In this document: piece by piece, positions 1 through 6,588 of the stretch
Position numbering within the stretch: position 1 is the stretch's first letter
How the letters are laid out: every line of letters begins with the position of its first letter
Source of the DNA: a bacterium
Lineage (GTDB): Bacteria > Blakebacterota > Blakebacteria > Blakebacterales > Blakebacteraceae
Reading direction: 5' to 3'
NCBI GenBank assembly: GCA_025774205.1
Contig: JALGWK010000168.1
Coordinates: 1 to 6,861, forward strand
Length of the DNA: 6,861 nucleotides
The notes under the pieces: generated by a model
Seen by the model: only the letters and a program-made list of their open reading frames with translations
Told to the model about the DNA's origin: nothing
Database searches by the model: none
Translations under genes and position numbers: made by a program

Positions 1-812
1 GTGACAGGATCGTAGATCTCAACCGAGGATAGATCACCGGTGTTATTGTTTCCGCCGGCGACGTAGAATTTGCCGTCGATGGCACCCCCGACCGCTCGGT
101 ATCTGGGAGTGGACATGGATGTGAGGATGTCAGTTACGCCAGTCTGGGGATCGAACACGACCAGCTCGTTTGTTCGGTTGCCGTTATCATACTGGCCACC
201 GGCGATGTAGAACTTGCCGTCAATAACGGCCGTGGCAGGATTGGAGACGTTAAGGCCACCTGCCATGTTCGTCCAGCTGGCGGCGTCAGGATCGTAGATA
301 TACATTTCGGCCGGTTCTCCACGCTGATTGACGTAGAGTTTGCCGCCTATTCCACGAGCAGTGGCATCCCAAGAAGCCGGAGTGATGGGTGGGGACGCCA
401 GTGAACTCCAGGAATTAGAGACTGGATCATACACATCGAATACGTCGAGTCGACCTCCCGCGTTATCCCCTGAGAGGACATATAACTTTCCACTCAGACC
501 GGCGACGACTGAGTAGGCGCGGGGCCCTGTCGCTGGATCGAACACCTCCAGTCGGTCGTAGTAGTTCGTGCCGTCGTGTCCTCCAACCACGTAGAGCTTG
601 CCGCCGAGTTCAGTAACTGAGGCGTTACCAACGGGGGTAATTCCCAGGGTATGGGACCGATCCCAGGTTTCATTAACGGAGATCGCGGCGATGCCGTAAC
701 CACCGGAAAGGGAGTAATTGGGTACCGCTACGGCGGTGGATTCCGGGACCGGCTCATTGAACCAGAAGGTGAAAGTGGTGTCGCCGCTGGCACCCTGGGC
801 GGTGATCGCGAT
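1..812 (-). repeat. Cassette 3: same architecture, partial, with degenerate propeller
   Basis: Residues 982 onward. The first Ig half (FWFNEPVPE, NYSLSGG) is about 982-1025, and the propeller opens at W1031. At least five blades are visible before the window edge. The junction of blades 1 and 2 is about ten residues short and lacks the usual W. Blade 2 has SG in place of GG and a small DVF-DVY duplication, and blade 3 has lost the GG. The second Ig half and the trailing domain would lie outside the window if the pattern holds. Confidence 0.72.
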
Positions 813-3755
813 CGGAGGCCGGTTGTCAATGTCGAGCAGGAGGGTGGCGGATTGACCGGAAGTGGTAGCGTTATCGTTCGGGGTAATCTTGATCCGGGTC
901 AGGCGGACCTCCTGGCCGTCCAGATCGCTGGCGGTCTTCCAGGTCAGACTCCCCTGATAGTCGGCAGGAAAGAGGTTGGTGATGGTTCCGGCCAGGGTGG
1001 CGGTCTGCCAGCTGTTCCCCCGGTCGGTTGAGTACTCACCGGTGAGGTTGATCGGATTGCCCTCGGGATCGGAGATCTCGTAGGGGATCGAAACGTCGCC
1101 TCTCTGGACTCCGATCGGGTAGTCGAGGGTAATGGAAGGCAACTGTCCGCTCTCGGGGTAGAAGTTCAGTTGGAGCGGGCCGCTGGTTGTGTTGCCGTAC
1201 CGGTCGGTGATGCCGGCATTGGCGGTAATGGTCAGCTGTGTTTCCGGTGAGGGGAGCACGTCGGTTCCGCTCAGCGACAGCTTGTACCCGATCCTCGGAT
1301 TGTAGATCCGGTGTACCCGGGTATAAGTCCCGTAAAATCCTCCGATGATGTGGAGGTTATCGCCGATCACTGTGGCCGTTGCTTTGAACCGGAGTTCGGG
1401 GGTTGTGGATTCGATCGACCAGCTGTCGGAAGCGGGGTCGTAGACGTAGAGCTTGTCGAGGAAATCGGTTCCGTTGTAGCCGCCAGCCACGTAGAGCTTC
1501 CCGTCGATCACACCGGAAGCGGCATTTGCCAGTGGCTCCGGCATCGGGGCTCTGGTCGCCCAGCTGTTGGTGGCCGGGTCGTAGACCTCCAGTACTGAGT
1601 AGTAGTTGCCTCCCCACTCCCCCCCGGCCACATAGAGCTTCTCATCAATGAGTCCGTAGCCGGCCGGCTGACGCGCCGTTGGCATGTTCGCTCTCGATGT
1701 CCAGGTGTTGGTCAGGGGATCGTACCGCCTGACCTCTGTATTGCCCCCCGCCCAGTAGATCTTGCCGCCGATCGCTGCGCCTGCCCCGGACTGACCCGTC
1801 TCCTGCTCCCACGCGCCCCCTGCCCATGTATCGGTCGCCGGATCGTAGATCTCGAGATCGTTGTTTCCTCCCACCGCGTAGATCTTTCCGTCCAATACAC
1901 AGAGCGTGAAACTCGATCGACCCTGGTTCAGTTGGGCCAGCTCAGTCCATGTATCGGTGTCCGGATCGTAGACATCCATCCGGTTCCAGTTATTCTCGCC
2001 CCCGACTACATAGACTTTGCCGTCATACGCTACGGCGGCGGAATTCGTGCGCTCCCCTGGTGCCTCGGCCCGGGTCTTCCATTTGTCGACCGAGATTGTG
2101 TCGGCCGACAGCCCTCCGCTCAGGGAGATTCTGGTGAGATTCGTGGCGGAGGTGTCCTCTACGGACTCGTTGAACCAGAAAGTAAGTGAAGTATATCCAG
2201 CATATGTGGAGACGTTGATGGACTCAGGCGGTTTGTTATCCAGCTGGAAAGAGACGGTTCTGGGCACTCCTGGCTCGGAATCGTTGTCCTTGGGAGTAAT
2301 ACGGACGACGACTTCAGCGTGTTCCTGATCGGGCAGATCGGTCCGGGATTGCCAGACCAGGGTATTCTGGTAATCGGTGGGGAAGATGCCACTCGTGGTC
2401 CCGCTCAGGGTGGCAGTACTCCAGTTGCTACCGGCATCGGTTGAATACTCTCCGGTGAGCCTGACCGGGTTGCCATCCGCATCGGAGATTATGTACGCAA
2501 CAGTGATGTCACCACCAAGAGTGCCTCCCAACGGATCGAGCACGAGCTCGGGAGCAGAACCAGTAGTAGGATAGAGGGCGGTCTCGAGCGGCGGGGAGGC
2601 GACATTGCCTGCCAGATCTTTGATATTGGAGGCCGTTAGGGTAACTTCTGTTTCGGCCGTGGGCAGAACCTGACTGCCGCTCAGGGTGATCATATATCCC
2701 TGCTGAGAGCGGTAGGTATCCAGCCGGTTTTCTCTAGCCCCATACCCCCCTACCTGGTAAAACCTGTCTCTGATAACCCCGCCGCGCGCGCCATCCCCAT
2801 TCCGTTGCATCACCGCTCCGACCGACCAGTTGTCTGAATTCGGATCGTATACATAGAGCGTGTCCGGTCCGACTCCGGTACCGCCTGCAATGAGCAGTTT
2901 TCCGTCAACAACTCCCGCGGCCGAGTTCCGGACTGTTTGGGGTAGGGAGGCCCCGGTCGACCAGGTATCGGTGGCTGGATCATACACCTCTAGAGTGGCA
3001 AGCTGGCTGCTGCTCCATTGACCCCCGGCGACGTACAACTTGTTTTCGATGACACCTGCCATTGCCTCGAATCGTGAGGTTGGCATAGCCGCGCCGGAGG
3101 ACCAGCTGTTGGCAACCGGATCGTAGATATCGATGTTGAGATCACCCCACTCACCCGGTGTCACGTAGATCTTGCCGTTAATGACACCCCCTGTAATCCA
3201 GTTCGGAATATCGCTTGGCGGGCTGGGGCCATCGGACCAGCTGTTGGTGGCCGGATCGTAGATCTCGAGTTTGGCGCCGTCCCCGCCGAAGACATAAAGC
3301 TTTCCACCCACGGCAGCGGCAAAACTGCCATGCTCATGAGGATGATTTGAATTGGCCTTTATGGTCCAGGAGCCCGTGGATGGATCGTACACTTCAAGTG
3401 AACCGTTGTTCGGACTTCCACCGATCGCGTACAGCTTCCCGTCCATAACCGCCACGGCCGGGTTGCCCCGATTCGATGGCAGACTGTTGGTGATCGCCCA
3501 GGTACTGATCGTATCGATGTGATCGACGGTCAATCCGCCAGAGAGGGAGAGATTGGCGGGATTGGTCGCTGTGGAGTCAGCAACGTCCTCGTTGAACCAG
3601 AAATCGATAGTGTTGTAACCGCTCCAGCCTCGGGCGTCGATCGACCCGGGCTGGGCACTGGCGGCCAGTGGAAAAGCACAGAGCAACAGTATGACAGCCA
3701 GGGGCTGACTGCAGCGGTGGATATAGTTCGAGCTCAATGAGATGTCTGCTTTCAT
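1..3755 (-). CDS. Giant exported kelch/Ig-like surface protein (C-terminus beyond window)
   Basis: I read one open frame of 1251 codons plus 2 bases with no stop; it runs off the left edge. The start ATG at 3755-3753 follows a weak AGG eight bases upstream. Residues 1-34 form a signal peptide (hydrophobic LAVILLLCAFPLAASA, likely cut after ASA). Then come three tandem cassettes, at residues 39-510, 511-981 and 982 onward. Each begins with half an Ig-like domain (FWFNE then LSGG), continues into a kelch propeller (repeated GKLYVxGG, YDPxT, W), returns to the second Ig half (SLSG, then DLAGN at 380-384 or DRYGN at 851-855), and ends with a ~110-residue domain containing ISDxxGNP and GEYSTD. Kelch propellers usually bind proteins or sugars; some are enzymes such as galactose oxidase, but no catalytic set is recognisable here. 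An adhesin or surface-binding role is inferred. The missing end may hold a sorting or dockerin domain. Confidence 0.93.
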   Translation of the reverse strand, partial: MKADISLSSNYIHRCSQPLAVILLLCAFPLAASAQPGSIDARGWSGYNTIDFWFNEDVADSTATNPANLSLSGGLTVDHIDTISTWAITNSLPSNRGNPAVAVMDGKLYAIGGSPNNGSLEVYDPSTGSWTIKANSNHPHEHGSFAAAVGGKLYVFGGDGAKLEIYDPATNSWSDGPSPPSDIPNWITGGVINGKIYVTPGEWGDLNIDIYDPVANSWSSGAAMPTSRFEAMAGVIENKLYVAGGQWSSSQLATLEVYDPATDTWSTGASLPQTVRNSAAGVVDGKLLIAGGTGVGPDTLYVYDPNSDNWSVGAVMQRNGDGARGGVIRDRFYQVGGYGARENRLDTYRSQQGYMITLSGSQVLPTAETEVTLTASNIKDLAGNVASPPLETALYPTTGSAPELVLDPLGGTLGGDITVAYIISDADGNPVRLTGEYSTDAGSNWSTATLSGTTSGIFPTDYQNTLVWQSRTDLPDQEHAEVVVRITPKDNDSEPGVPRTVSFQLDNKPPESINVSTYAGYTSLTFWFNESVEDTSATNLTRISLSGGLSADTISVDKWKTRAEAPGERTNSAAVAYDGKVYVVGGENNWNRMDVYDPDTDTWTELAQLNQGRSSFTLCVLDGKIYAVGGNNDLEIYDPATDTWAGGAWEQETGQSGAGAAIGGKIYWAGGNTEVRRYDPLTNTWTSRANMPTARQPAGYGLIDEKLYVAGGEWGGNYYSVLEVYDPATNSWATRAPMPEPLANAASGVIDGKLYVAGGYNGTDFLDKLYVYDPASDSWSIESTTPELRFKATATVIGDNLHIIGGFYGTYTRVHRIYNPRIGYKLSLSGTDVLPSPETQLTITANAGITDRYGNTTSGPLQLNFYPESGQLPSITLDYPIGVQRGDVSIPYEISDPEGNPINLTGEYSTDRGNSWQTATLAGTITNLFPADYQGSLTWKTASDLDGQEVRLTRIKITPNDNATTSGQSATLLLDIDNRPPIAITAQGASGDTTFTFWFNEPVPESTAVAVPNYSLSGGYGIAAISVNETWDRSHTLGITPVGNASVTELGGKLYVVGGHDGTNYYDRLEVFDPATGPRAYSVVAGLSGKLYVLSGDNAGGRLDVFDVYDPVSNSWSSLASPPITPASWDATARGIGGKLYVNQRGEPAEMYIYDPDAASWTNMAGGLNVSNPATAVIDGKFYIAGGQYDNGNRTNELVVFDPQTGVTDILTSMSTPRYRAVGGAIDGKFYVAGGNNNTGDLSSVEIYDPV
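813..2225 (-). repeat. Cassette 2: same nested architecture
   Basis: Residues 511-981, 471 residues against 472 for cassette 1. The first Ig half is about 511-554 (FWFNESVED, then SLSGGLSAD). The propeller, about 555-823, has six blades and opens at W559. The second Ig half is 824-867 with DRYGN at 851-855. The trailing beta domain is 872-981, ending in IDNRPP. It aligns with cassette 1 without large gaps, and blades at equal positions resemble each other best. For example, blade 4 in both carries YVAGG(Q/E)W and LEVYDPAT. This points to duplication of the whole cassette. Confidence 0.8.
2226..3641 (-). repeat. Cassette 1: split Ig-like domain with nested six-blade kelch propeller, plus beta domain
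   Basis: Residues 39-510 of the large protein. The first Ig half is about residues 39-80. The propeller, about 82-353, has six blades, each with a GKLY-like strand, a GG (PG in blade 3) and YDPxxxxW. Blade 6 lacks the closing DPxxxxW. The W86 segment ahead of blade 1 probably supplies its last strand, the usual velcro closure of a propeller. The second Ig half is 354-396 with DLAGN at 380-384. Residues 401-510 form a separate beta-rich domain ending in LDNKPP. Domain limits are by eye. Confidence 0.8.
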
Positions 3756-3906: not shown

Positions 3907-4854
3907 TCATGGTACGATCACCGTGGCTGCGATGAGGCCAGTTGGACTGATCGTATTGTTGTTGTGATCTCTCAGTTCAGTGGGTTCTACGAAGGCGATA
4001 GCGTGTACACCGGTTCCGATGGCCCTGAAATGCAGAGTGGCGATGACGCCGGTGCCGGATACGCTGGCGGGAGATCCTCCGGCGATGCCTATGGCCAGTT
4101 CCCAGGCGCCCGAGGCCTCTTCACCCGTGGTGCCCAGGGTCAGGACATCACCTCCATTGGAACTCAGGAACGGACCCTGGTCCCACTCGGAGATGTGCTG
4201 GATCCTGGAGGGGTTCCAGACGATCCTGAGGTTCAGCATCGCCAGGTCGGTGACACCATCGGCGACGATGTCTATATCGAAGGTGCCGTTCAGAGCGATC
4301 GGTGTGACCCGCGGGCTTAAGCGCAGGGCAGGTCCGGAGACCGCGTTGACGGTAAAGCCGATGGTCTCGGGGGTGTCGTCCCACTCGGACGGATCACCTC
4401 CCGTCATATTCGACGGATAGCCGGCCCGCACCATGAAGGTGTACGTGAGTTCATCCAGAAAGTTGAGGGTCACCGAGGTGTCGGTGGTCCAGCTACTCCA
4501 CCCATTCGCGAACATCCCCGACCAGGCTGGCCAGTCGGTGCCGTAGGCGCCGCCGGAAACCCTGACCTGGAACATGGTGGCCCCGGTATTGCCCGACCAG
4601 CTGAAGGTCACCGATGATGATGTCACCGTGGAGCCGTCAGACGGTCCGCCTGAAATACTGGTCTGCGGGCTTACATGGTCCGGGGCGTCGGGGTCGATCG
4701 GGTTGTCGAAGACCGGATCATCCGGCTCTTCCGGTACCAGCAGCGTACCGCATCCTCCCGCGATCGTCACGATTCCCACTGTGAGCGCCACGCCAATGAG
4801 GGCGGTAACCAACCGGCGTCGAAGCCCCTGTTTCATCAGTCTGGATGCCATCAT
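3907..4854 (-). CDS. Cohesin-like domain lipoprotein with fibronectin/Ig-like domain
   Basis: 315 residues. A basic N-terminus (KQGLRRR) and hydrophobic segment 15-34 lead to IAGGC, with Cys35 as the likely lipidated residue. This suggests membrane anchoring through a lipoprotein signal peptide, although the lipobox is not a textbook one. An acidic, Pro-rich linker (41-62) is followed by an Ig/FN3-like domain at about 63-171 (VTFSWSGN, WSSWTTD, LTYTFMVRAGYP). Residues 176-315 match a cohesin fold by pattern: GTFDIDIVADGV, LNLRIVWNP, GPFLSSNGG, the VSGTGVIATLHFRAIGTG stretch and ELRDHNNNTI. Cohesins bind dockerins and hold secreted proteins on the cell surface, but no dockerin is visible in this window. 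The ATG overlaps the upstream TGA as ATGA (4851-4854), which indicates translational coupling. A GGTGG lies eight bases upstream. Met7 is a possible alternative start. Confidence 0.88.
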   Translation of the reverse strand: MMASRLMKQGLRRRLVTALIGVALTVGIVTIAGGCGTLLVPEEPDDPVFDNPIDPDAPDHVSPQTSISGGPSDGSTVTSSSVTFSWSGNTGATMFQVRVSGGAYGTDWPAWSGMFANGWSSWTTDTSVTLNFLDELTYTFMVRAGYPSNMTGGDPSEWDDTPETIGFTVNAVSGPALRLSPRVTPIALNGTFDIDIVADGVTDLAMLNLRIVWNPSRIQHISEWDQGPFLSSNGGDVLTLGTTGEEASGAWELAIGIAGGSPASVSGTGVIATLHFRAIGTGVHAIAFVEPTELRDHNNNTISPTGLIAATVIVP

Positions 4855-5204
4855 TTGAATGCCACCGAAAGAGAAAGGGTGAGTCGGCCTTGCTGCGTGC
4901 CCAGGTTGAGATCGCTCTGAACCCCGGCGCCGGGTATCGGCCGCAGACGCGGCAGGAGGGCGAAGGCATCAAGAACGCTTACCCCCCAGATGACGCTCAT
5001 GATCATGGCGGTATTATTCATGCTGTTGTGGCTGTCGATGCGTTCCTGATTCTTTACGATCATTCGATCGCGCCAGATATCGATCTGATCCGAAGTGGTA
5101 GCGTTCCTGTAAGACTGCACGATCCGGTCATATTCGTCGTTGAGTCTGTTTCTCCGAGAAGGTAGCCACCGCGGTGCCGGCCACACCGGCCAGGTAGAGG
5201 ACAC
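4851..5204 (-). CDS. Displaced C-terminal part of the CsgG/PEGA protein (DUF5683-like tail)
   Basis: The frame opens at a GTG (5204), but its first 18 residues look non-native. Coherent sequence begins at NRLNDEYDRIV near 5150. The meaningful ~99 residues contain a charged helical stretch, then a likely membrane helix (TAMIMSVIWGVSVLDAFALL), and end in a beta-like LTLSLSVAFK. A WxxxVLDA motif after a helix, together with the upstream PGFGHFYSGRGF, is what I expect in DUF5683-like membrane tails. This is therefore most likely the end of the gene at 5128-6588, separated by a one-base frameshift, and not a gene of its own. Its TGA overlaps the ATG of the lipoprotein, so in an intact gene the two would be translationally coupled. 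Confidence 0.75.
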   Translation of the reverse strand: MSSTWPVWPAPRWLPSRRNRLNDEYDRIVQSYRNATTSDQIDIWRDRMIVKNQERIDSHNSMNNTAMIMSVIWGVSVLDAFALLPRLRPIPGAGVQSDLNLGTQQGRLTLSLSVAFK

Positions 5205-6588
5205 CCATGAAGCCGCGGCCGGAGTAGAAGTGCCCGAATCCAGGGATGGCTGAAAGCAGTCCGGCTGCTACCCGAGACTTTCGCCTCAATACAATCGGGA
5301 ACGGCTTGTTGTCACCGTCGGCCAGCTGGACGGTCTCCCGCCAGGTTCTATAGCCCTTGGCCTTGATGGTGAGCGAGTAATTCCCGGGGGGGATGGGGAT
5401 ACTCACCTCGGCGTTATTGAGCCGGGCATCGCGCTCCTCGTCACCGGTGATGGTCAGCCGGGCTCCCGCCAGGGTGTTCTGAAAGGTGATCTGGGCGGCG
5501 CCGGCCCTGAGCATGGTCAGATCGACCCGATTGGTCTGACGGGCGGCGATATCGACCTGTTGGGTCTGGGGCTCATACCCGTCACGCCTCAACTCTACCT
5601 GATGGGGTCCTTCATTGAGTTTGTGCCGGGTAATGGGGGTGTTTCCGACCAGATTGCCGTCCACCAATACCTGGCACTGGCTGGGATCTGAAATGACGGT
5701 CAGGTAGCCCTTCGGCAGATCGACCAGGGCAATGTTCATGGTCTGTGGCTCTCCGGCCTTGACCTGGATGGTCTGCGAGGCCATCCCGTAGCCACTCAGG
5801 CTGACACGGATCTCATGATCACCCTCGGAAAGTGTCGTGGTCGCCGGCGTAGTCGAACCGAATACCTCACCGTCTATGGTAATGGTCGCTCCCGGAGGAT
5901 TTGACTGCACCGTGACCTGCGCGGTGGTCGGTACTGCCGGCTGGCCGGGATCGGTCGAGGGAGTGTAGGGCTGCCCGGTTACCCTGGCGGCCAGCTGGTT
6001 GGCGACATCCAATGTAGATGTCCTCAACACCTCTTCCAGACCACCGAGCGCATCCTTGAAGACCTGGTCGTCGATCCGGGCTGAGGCGATGTCGATCAGG
6101 CGGATCTGCAGTGTATAGAGTGTCCCGACCTTGGAGACACTGCCCGCCACCATCTTGCTGGCGCCCAGGACCTGACCGACCTGGACCACGCATTCATCAG
6201 TGTCGCAGGCGCCGCTGACCTGGAAGCCGATCTCGTTCATGATCTCTTCCATCTGGTTCCGCTCGATCACCTCGAAAGCGCCGGTGCGTGCCAGGTGGAG
6301 GCGCAGACGTTCACTGATGGCGCGCGCCTCGCTATCCTCGATGCCGTTGGCTTCCAGGTCCCACACACCGACCCTCAGTAATTCCTGGTCTCCCCCCTGT
6401 ATGAAAGATGCCTCAGCCGGCGCGGGCCCGGCAGACGAGGCCTGAGTAACAGGGCTCAGGAAGCAGATGGTGGAGATGGTCAGGAGGGTGAAGGTCAGTC
6501 GAAGGAAGAACCGGTGCGATCCAGCCCCGTGCCGGGCTGGCGGGCAGGAGACTCCGGTAACATGTGACAGCCTATTCTGATTAGCCAT
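5128..6588 (-). CDS. Exported CsgG-like / PEGA-repeat protein, frameshifted near its C-terminus
   Basis: 486 residues in this frame, starting at ATG 6588 with AGGA four bases upstream. A long n-region and hydrophobic stretch 27-47 form a signal peptide, probably cut after VTQA50 or SSA53. Residues 69-205 resemble CsgG-like envelope domains: LLRVGVWDLEA, ISERLRLHLARTGAFEVIER, a C128/C133 pair in CDTDEC, LGASKMVAGSVSKVG and LIDIASARI. Two PEGA repeats follow (about 224-290, PPGATITIDGEVFG...GYG; about 294-360, PSQCQVLVDGNLVG...RRDGYE), then a third PEGA-like unit at about 365-435 (PGNYSLTIKAKGY). A membrane segment starts at 440 (GLLSAIPGFGHFYSG). The last residues QTQRRI look foreign; the native continuation is in another frame from about 5150, giving ~579 residues if repaired. 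The protein probably sits in the periplasm or outer envelope; its exact role is unknown. Confidence 0.88.
   Translation of the reverse strand: MANQNRLSHVTGVSCPPARHGAGSHRFFLRLTFTLLTISTICFLSPVTQASSAGPAPAEASFIQGGDQELLRVGVWDLEANGIEDSEARAISERLRLHLARTGAFEVIERNQMEEIMNEIGFQVSGACDTDECVVQVGQVLGASKMVAGSVSKVGTLYTLQIRLIDIASARIDDQVFKDALGGLEEVLRTSTLDVANQLAARVTGQPYTPSTDPGQPAVPTTAQVTVQSNPPGATITIDGEVFGSTTPATTTLSEGDHEIRVSLSGYGMASQTIQVKAGEPQTMNIALVDLPKGYLTVISDPSQCQVLVDGNLVGNTPITRHKLNEGPHQVELRRDGYEPQTQQVDIAARQTNRVDLTMLRAGAAQITFQNTLAGARLTITGDEERDARLNNAEVSIPIPPGNYSLTIKAKGYRTWRETVQLADGDNKPFPIVLRRKSRVAAGLLSAIPGFGHFYSGRGFMGVLYLAGVAGTAVATFSEKQTQRRI
5148..5152 (-). other. Likely frameshift point in the CsgG/PEGA gene
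   Basis: The minus strand reads GAG AAA CAG here, leading to QTQRRI and a stop. Adding one A to the three-A run (5149-5151) would give GAG AAA AAC AGA CTC, that is EK-NRLNDEYDR, joining both halves smoothly. This suggests a lost base in a short homopolymer, either a real mutation or a read/assembly error. The exact base cannot be fixed; both frames are open from about 5128 to 5204. Confidence 0.65.

Follow-up and report, generated by a model that had tools for sequence, protein, structure and literature searches.

In kelch propellers the ring is closed by the N-terminal strand, which forms the outermost strand of the last blade, beside the C-terminal strand. Bacterial kelch proteins include the NanM/YjhT mutarotases and GlxA/galactose oxidase. 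Six-bladed kelch propellers are known from Keap1, NS1-BP and the designed SAKe proteins; the propellers described here share this fold (Z 33–35, about 28% identity), but their termini run into the two halves of another domain. This second domain is of the Pfam Big_5 type (PF13205). Its halves match the profile when joined, whereas in the chain the Ig domain is interrupted by the propeller at one hairpin. A beta-propeller inserted in a host fold also occurs in the prolyl oligopeptidase family, where the host is an alpha/beta hydrolase; unlike in the present protein this host is an enzyme, the insertion is found in a single copy and the propeller belongs to another family. In the V. cholerae sialidase another domain is inserted into the beta-propeller (PMC2716378). 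Propeller and other domain are thus nested in one chain in both proteins, but in the present one it is the propeller that is inserted. The open-licence literature searched gave no account of an Ig domain hosting a propeller, kelch or otherwise, in agreement with the earlier note on this DNA, which had not recognised the architecture as a described one. We are dealing very probably with an exported stalk of repeated cassettes in which kelch propellers are nested in the hairpins of Big_5-type Ig domains, most likely exported by the type IX system and serving in binding.

The window, i.e. the whole stretch of DNA analysed, is a complete contig of 6861 bases from a fragmented genome assembly (G000; 527 contigs, 86% complete). 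The giant gene occupies the minus strand from its start at 3755 down to base 3, where the contig end cuts it, leaving an open-ended frame of 1251 amino acids with kelch repeats across the protein (Pfam Kelch_1, E 8e-120). The frame comprises a signal peptide, two full cassettes and most of a third. Each cassette begins with the first half of an Ig domain, followed by a six-bladed kelch propeller, the second half of the Ig domain and a linker beta-sandwich. Kelch propellers nested in split Ig-like domains had been proposed in the earlier note for positions 1–3641, which is correct apart from the signal peptide. Two complete copies of the pattern FWFNE...LSGG / kelch / ...LSG...D-x-x-GN are indeed present, at residues about 36–397 and 509–868, and the third cassette ends inside its propeller at the contig end. 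The designation as a giant surface protein is plausible only, since the gene is cut by the contig end; the homologue of a relative has at least 2153 amino acids. The features of the gene are as follows:

3651–3755, minus strand: signal peptide, residues 1–35, read from the sequence as a hydrophobic stretch ending in ...LAASAQ, with the first Ig half directly after it
3504–3650, minus strand: cassette 1, first half of the Big_5-type Ig domain, residues 36–84; joined-half Pfam match; model strands 4–9, 14–19, 34–36 and 42–48 (mean pLDDT 83)
2703–3503, minus strand: cassette 1, nested six-bladed kelch propeller, residues 85–351; Pfam kelch; Z 35 to the NS1-BP kelch domain over model residues 52–317
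2565–2702, minus strand: cassette 1, second half of the Ig domain, residues 352–397; joined-half Pfam match; model strands 318–323, 336–340 and 355–359
2232–2564, minus strand: cassette 1, linker beta-sandwich with the Asp-box-like motif STDAGSNW, residues 398–508; own HMM, weak Pfam BNR/Asp-box match
2082–2231, minus strand: cassette 2, first half of the Ig domain, residues 509–558; joined-half Pfam match of 23.4 bits
1293–2081, minus strand: cassette 2, nested kelch propeller, residues 559–821; Pfam kelch; 44% in the alignment with cassette 1
1152–1292, minus strand: cassette 2, second half of the Ig domain, residues 822–868; Pfam Big_5 at 837–865, 22.7 bits, below the cut-off
819–1151, minus strand: cassette 2, linker beta-sandwich, residues 869–979; placed by alignment
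669–818, minus strand: cassette 3, first half of the Ig domain, residues 980–1029; own Ig HMM, i-E 1.1e-12
3–668, minus strand: cassette 3, kelch propeller cut by the contig end (base 1), residues 1030–1251; kelch repeats

Standard annotation of this protein shows only kelch, because each Ig half alone scores below threshold. On the whole protein the only Ig piece reported by Pfam is the Big_5 match in cassette 2, under the curated cut-off of 23.6 bits. Scanned singly, three of the four halves of cassettes 1 and 2 gave no match and one reached 14.9 bits. When the halves of cassette 1 were joined without the kelch part, Big_5 was matched with 29.1 bits, above the cut-off, over positions 21–97 of the 105 in the profile; the joined halves of cassette 2 scored just under the cut-off. 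This check had been proposed in the earlier note, and it came out positive in all six complete cassettes available from three genomes (E<1; profile positions 20–97 of 105), the best score being the 29.1 bits above the cut-off. Joining the halves in reverse order as a control yielded 18.8 and 19.5 bits, through the second half alone. The split lies at an identical point in the six cassettes of the three genomes and is therefore not due to chance. When the joined halves are aligned with intact Big_5 domains from these genomes, the junction lies at a hairpin, between a strand ending in ...VTYVWS and a strand starting with DGKQLTV, so that the predicted insertion at the canonical beta-hairpin turn holds. 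The interrupting propeller measures about 262–283 residues, and the Ig domain is non-contiguous in every cassette. Its halves diverge together across cassettes (r 0.86 for 15 pairs, which are non-independent). Profile-profile runs of the joined halves against single intact Ig domains were shallow, with few sequences, and uninformative, and no solved structure showed a recognisable sequence relationship to the joined Ig domain.

It is conceivable that the flanking pieces are loose edges of the propeller or a seventh blade and that there is no Ig domain. The near absence of profile matches for single halves would fit such an arrangement, as would the course of the flank strands near the propeller in the model described below. 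However, the joined halves match Big_5 in six of six cassettes, the six blades alone suffice for the match to six-bladed kelch structures (Z 35, 263 residues) and the flanks are predicted with a confidence equal to that of the propeller. We consider this arrangement very improbable.

An AlphaFold2 model of cassette 1 was calculated from an alignment of the five other cassettes. The model is confident throughout (mean pLDDT 84), with a pTM of 0.62 that makes the orientations of the domains uncertain, and shows Ig-like strands on both sides of a six-bladed propeller. The propeller resembles the kelch domain of NS1-BP (5yy8; Z 35.4, rmsd 2.0 over 263 residues); the structural matches listed for the cassette are kelch chains, and the comparison bears on the propeller part. 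Values of pLDDT were 83 for the first Ig half, 88 for the second and 84 for the linker. As a control we modelled residues 350–560, a fragment in which a second half and the first half of the following cassette enclose the linker; this is the sole alternative pairing of halves from neighbouring cassettes. Here pLDDT fell from 88 to 48 for the second half, from 83 to 35 for the first half and from 84 to 66 for the linker. Since the linker fell too, part of the drop reflects the smaller context; the halves are confidently predicted only in the nested context. The prediction of structure, which the earlier note had suggested, is thereby consistent with nesting, and the strands of the two halves, predicted with pLDDT 83–88, would pair in one sandwich.

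The control bears on a further reading, in which the Ig domain combines the second half from one cassette with the first half from its successor, the linker is nested in this circularly permuted Ig domain and the propellers are free-standing. The order of the repeats alone permits this, and first and second halves are nearly equal in number. But Big_5 is matched only in the order first half to second half, the fragment corresponding to the permuted domain models poorly (pLDDT of the Ig halves 35 and 48), and the first cassette opens with a first half directly after the signal peptide. Moreover, a protein of another phylum (G004) has the linker followed by an intact Ig domain, which marks the two as successive domains. 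A permuted Ig domain is accordingly very unlikely.

Under the nested reading the six-bladed propeller would take the place of the beta-hairpin turn between the fourth and fifth strands of the Big_5-type Ig domain. Owing to the closure topology of kelch propellers, entry and exit are adjacent antiparallel strands, like the strands of the Ig hairpin. The argument of the earlier note that neighbouring propeller ends make insertion at a turn reasonable fits this topology, and also the model, in which only 2–3 residues separate Ig and propeller strands (48 to 51; 314 to 318). The entry and exit strands would continue straight into the hairpin strands of the Ig domain, and with so short a gap in the model a beta ribbon could span both domains. 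A separate beta-sandwich linker would connect each nested Ig domain with the next. The main chain of the stalk would then run Ig-linker-Ig-linker, and the propellers would probably project from it as side branches. On balance we favour the view that this is an undescribed construction of a giant stalk, with propellers set serially into Ig hairpin turns as side branches, their closing strands entering the Ig sheet, and that it spread by cassette duplication within one phylum. It suggests a way to hang many binding wheels on one filament outside the load-bearing chain, and offers a rule open to test: hairpin turns can accept a closed propeller, its entry and exit being neighbouring strands. Nesting of this kind may be overlooked by standard annotation, and may be of interest to protein designers and to students of type IX-secreted surface proteins.

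The phylum was sampled with four genomes (G000, G001, G002 and G003), of which three have the nested order. In G001, from the same genus (also JALGVQ010000039), the homologue has at least 2153 amino acids, with a subtilase as its head and nested cassettes of which three are complete. G002, from the same family (JAGLTZ010000076, labelled Candidatus Latescibacterota), has a head consisting of a free-standing seven-repeat propeller and one nested cassette. From G003 (63% complete) only a C-terminal piece is available on a contig starting inside the gene; it contains the linker, a region with putative dockerin-like motifs and a type IX sorting tail. The first and second cassettes of G001, the most similar pair, are 81% identical in the Ig domain, 61% in the linker and 54% in the propeller. 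A conserved host with a diverging passenger is what would be expected if the propellers differ in binding specificity, and is suggestive only. Intact Big_5 domains are present in the same genomes as the nested cassettes; no uninterrupted Ig domain closely resembling the nested type was found in the phylum. The giant proteins at the same locus differ in their heads: none in the window (3–3755), a subtilase in G001 (L032:2060–8521) and the free-standing seven-repeat propeller in G002 (L033:4956–7832). The G001 homologue shifts frame by the contig end, near 8448–8521 of L032 (G001:C314 near 16447–16520), and a linker and a fourth Ig first half lie beyond this point in another frame.

We also surveyed 386 genomes sampled across the domain, the split-Ig scan covering the loci retrieved from them. 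Strong matches to the cassette profile were obtained in 53 of the 386, mostly via the kelch part. A propeller and a split Ig domain together were not found outside the phylum among the loci scanned. The search of genomes for the nested order that the earlier note had called for therefore yielded two further genomes of the phylum and none elsewhere among the 386. In 14 arrays inspected in other genomes, the propellers are flanked by complete domains of the Ig or fibronectin III type, by signal peptides or by unrelated sequence. G357, G182, G333, G200, G331, G031 and others were rejected as nested candidates, as their flanking domains are complete or absent. Two proteins, G357:C167 (L078) and G200:C10 (L081), are similar to the giant protein in having several propellers that alternate with beta-sandwich domains, but there these domains (Ig or fibronectin III) are complete between the propellers, as beads on a string. 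In G357:C167 propellers of six to seven kelch repeats alternate with intact Ig-like domains, which makes it a clean non-nested counterpart. The nested architecture is real by every test run; it is built from known parts and confined so far to one small phylum.

The linker is distributed more widely. Our own HMM detected it in 14 of the 386 genomes, belonging to several phyla, and it has no good match in Pfam. G004 has an intact Big_5 domain (25.7 bits) directly after the linker, then a cohesin and a type IX tail, and one profile match there covers the linker together with the beginning of the Ig domain. Linker and intact Big_5 of G004 are the natural uninterrupted counterpart of the nested cassette. 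In a large protein of G123 (C106, L087) the linker domain alone is repeated in a long tandem array, with an Asp-box-like motif in each copy.

Outside the cell, the propellers would bind other molecules. They might, however, be enzymes of the mutarotase or copper-radical oxidase type, nested as described and strung on a scaffold. Bacterial kelch enzymes exist and weak matches to such families were found, but the scores of 95, 83 and 23 bits stand against cut-offs of 243, 256 and 800 (the NanM/YjhT mutarotase family being the one with 83 against 256) and are as expected from shared kelch repeats alone. We give this possibility little weight and retain propellers that bind as the preferred interpretation.

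The giant protein would reach the cell surface or the medium by type IX secretion. All four genomes of the phylum encode SprA of the type IX translocon, which is absent from the 14 control genomes examined. A sister protein that shares the linker (G003:C173) ends in a Por_Secre_tail (31 bits). The sorting tail is known from this relative, the C-terminus of the giant gene lying beyond the contig end, and type IX secretion of the giant protein itself appears likely. Two genes are located upstream of it:

3907–4854, minus strand: lipoprotein-like gene, C-terminal domain cohesin-like; gene order shared by three genomes
4851–6588, minus strand: CsgG/PEGA-domain gene (Pfam PEGA 3e-41, CsgG); same order in three genomes

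The locus thus has the order CsgG/PEGA gene, cohesin-like lipoprotein gene and giant gene in three genomes. The lipoprotein-like protein has no direct Pfam match, and its C-terminal half aligns with a Pfam-recognised cohesin (hhalign probability 93.9, E 1.6e-7). Given the dockerin-like motifs in the C-terminus of the G003 sister protein, it may possibly pair with the giant protein. The CsgG/PEGA gene of the window is split over two frames near 5130–5200 (4851–5204 and 5128–6588, both minus strand), with its final portion in a different frame, and is continuous in G001 and G002; the split is either an assembly error or a sign of a broken gene.
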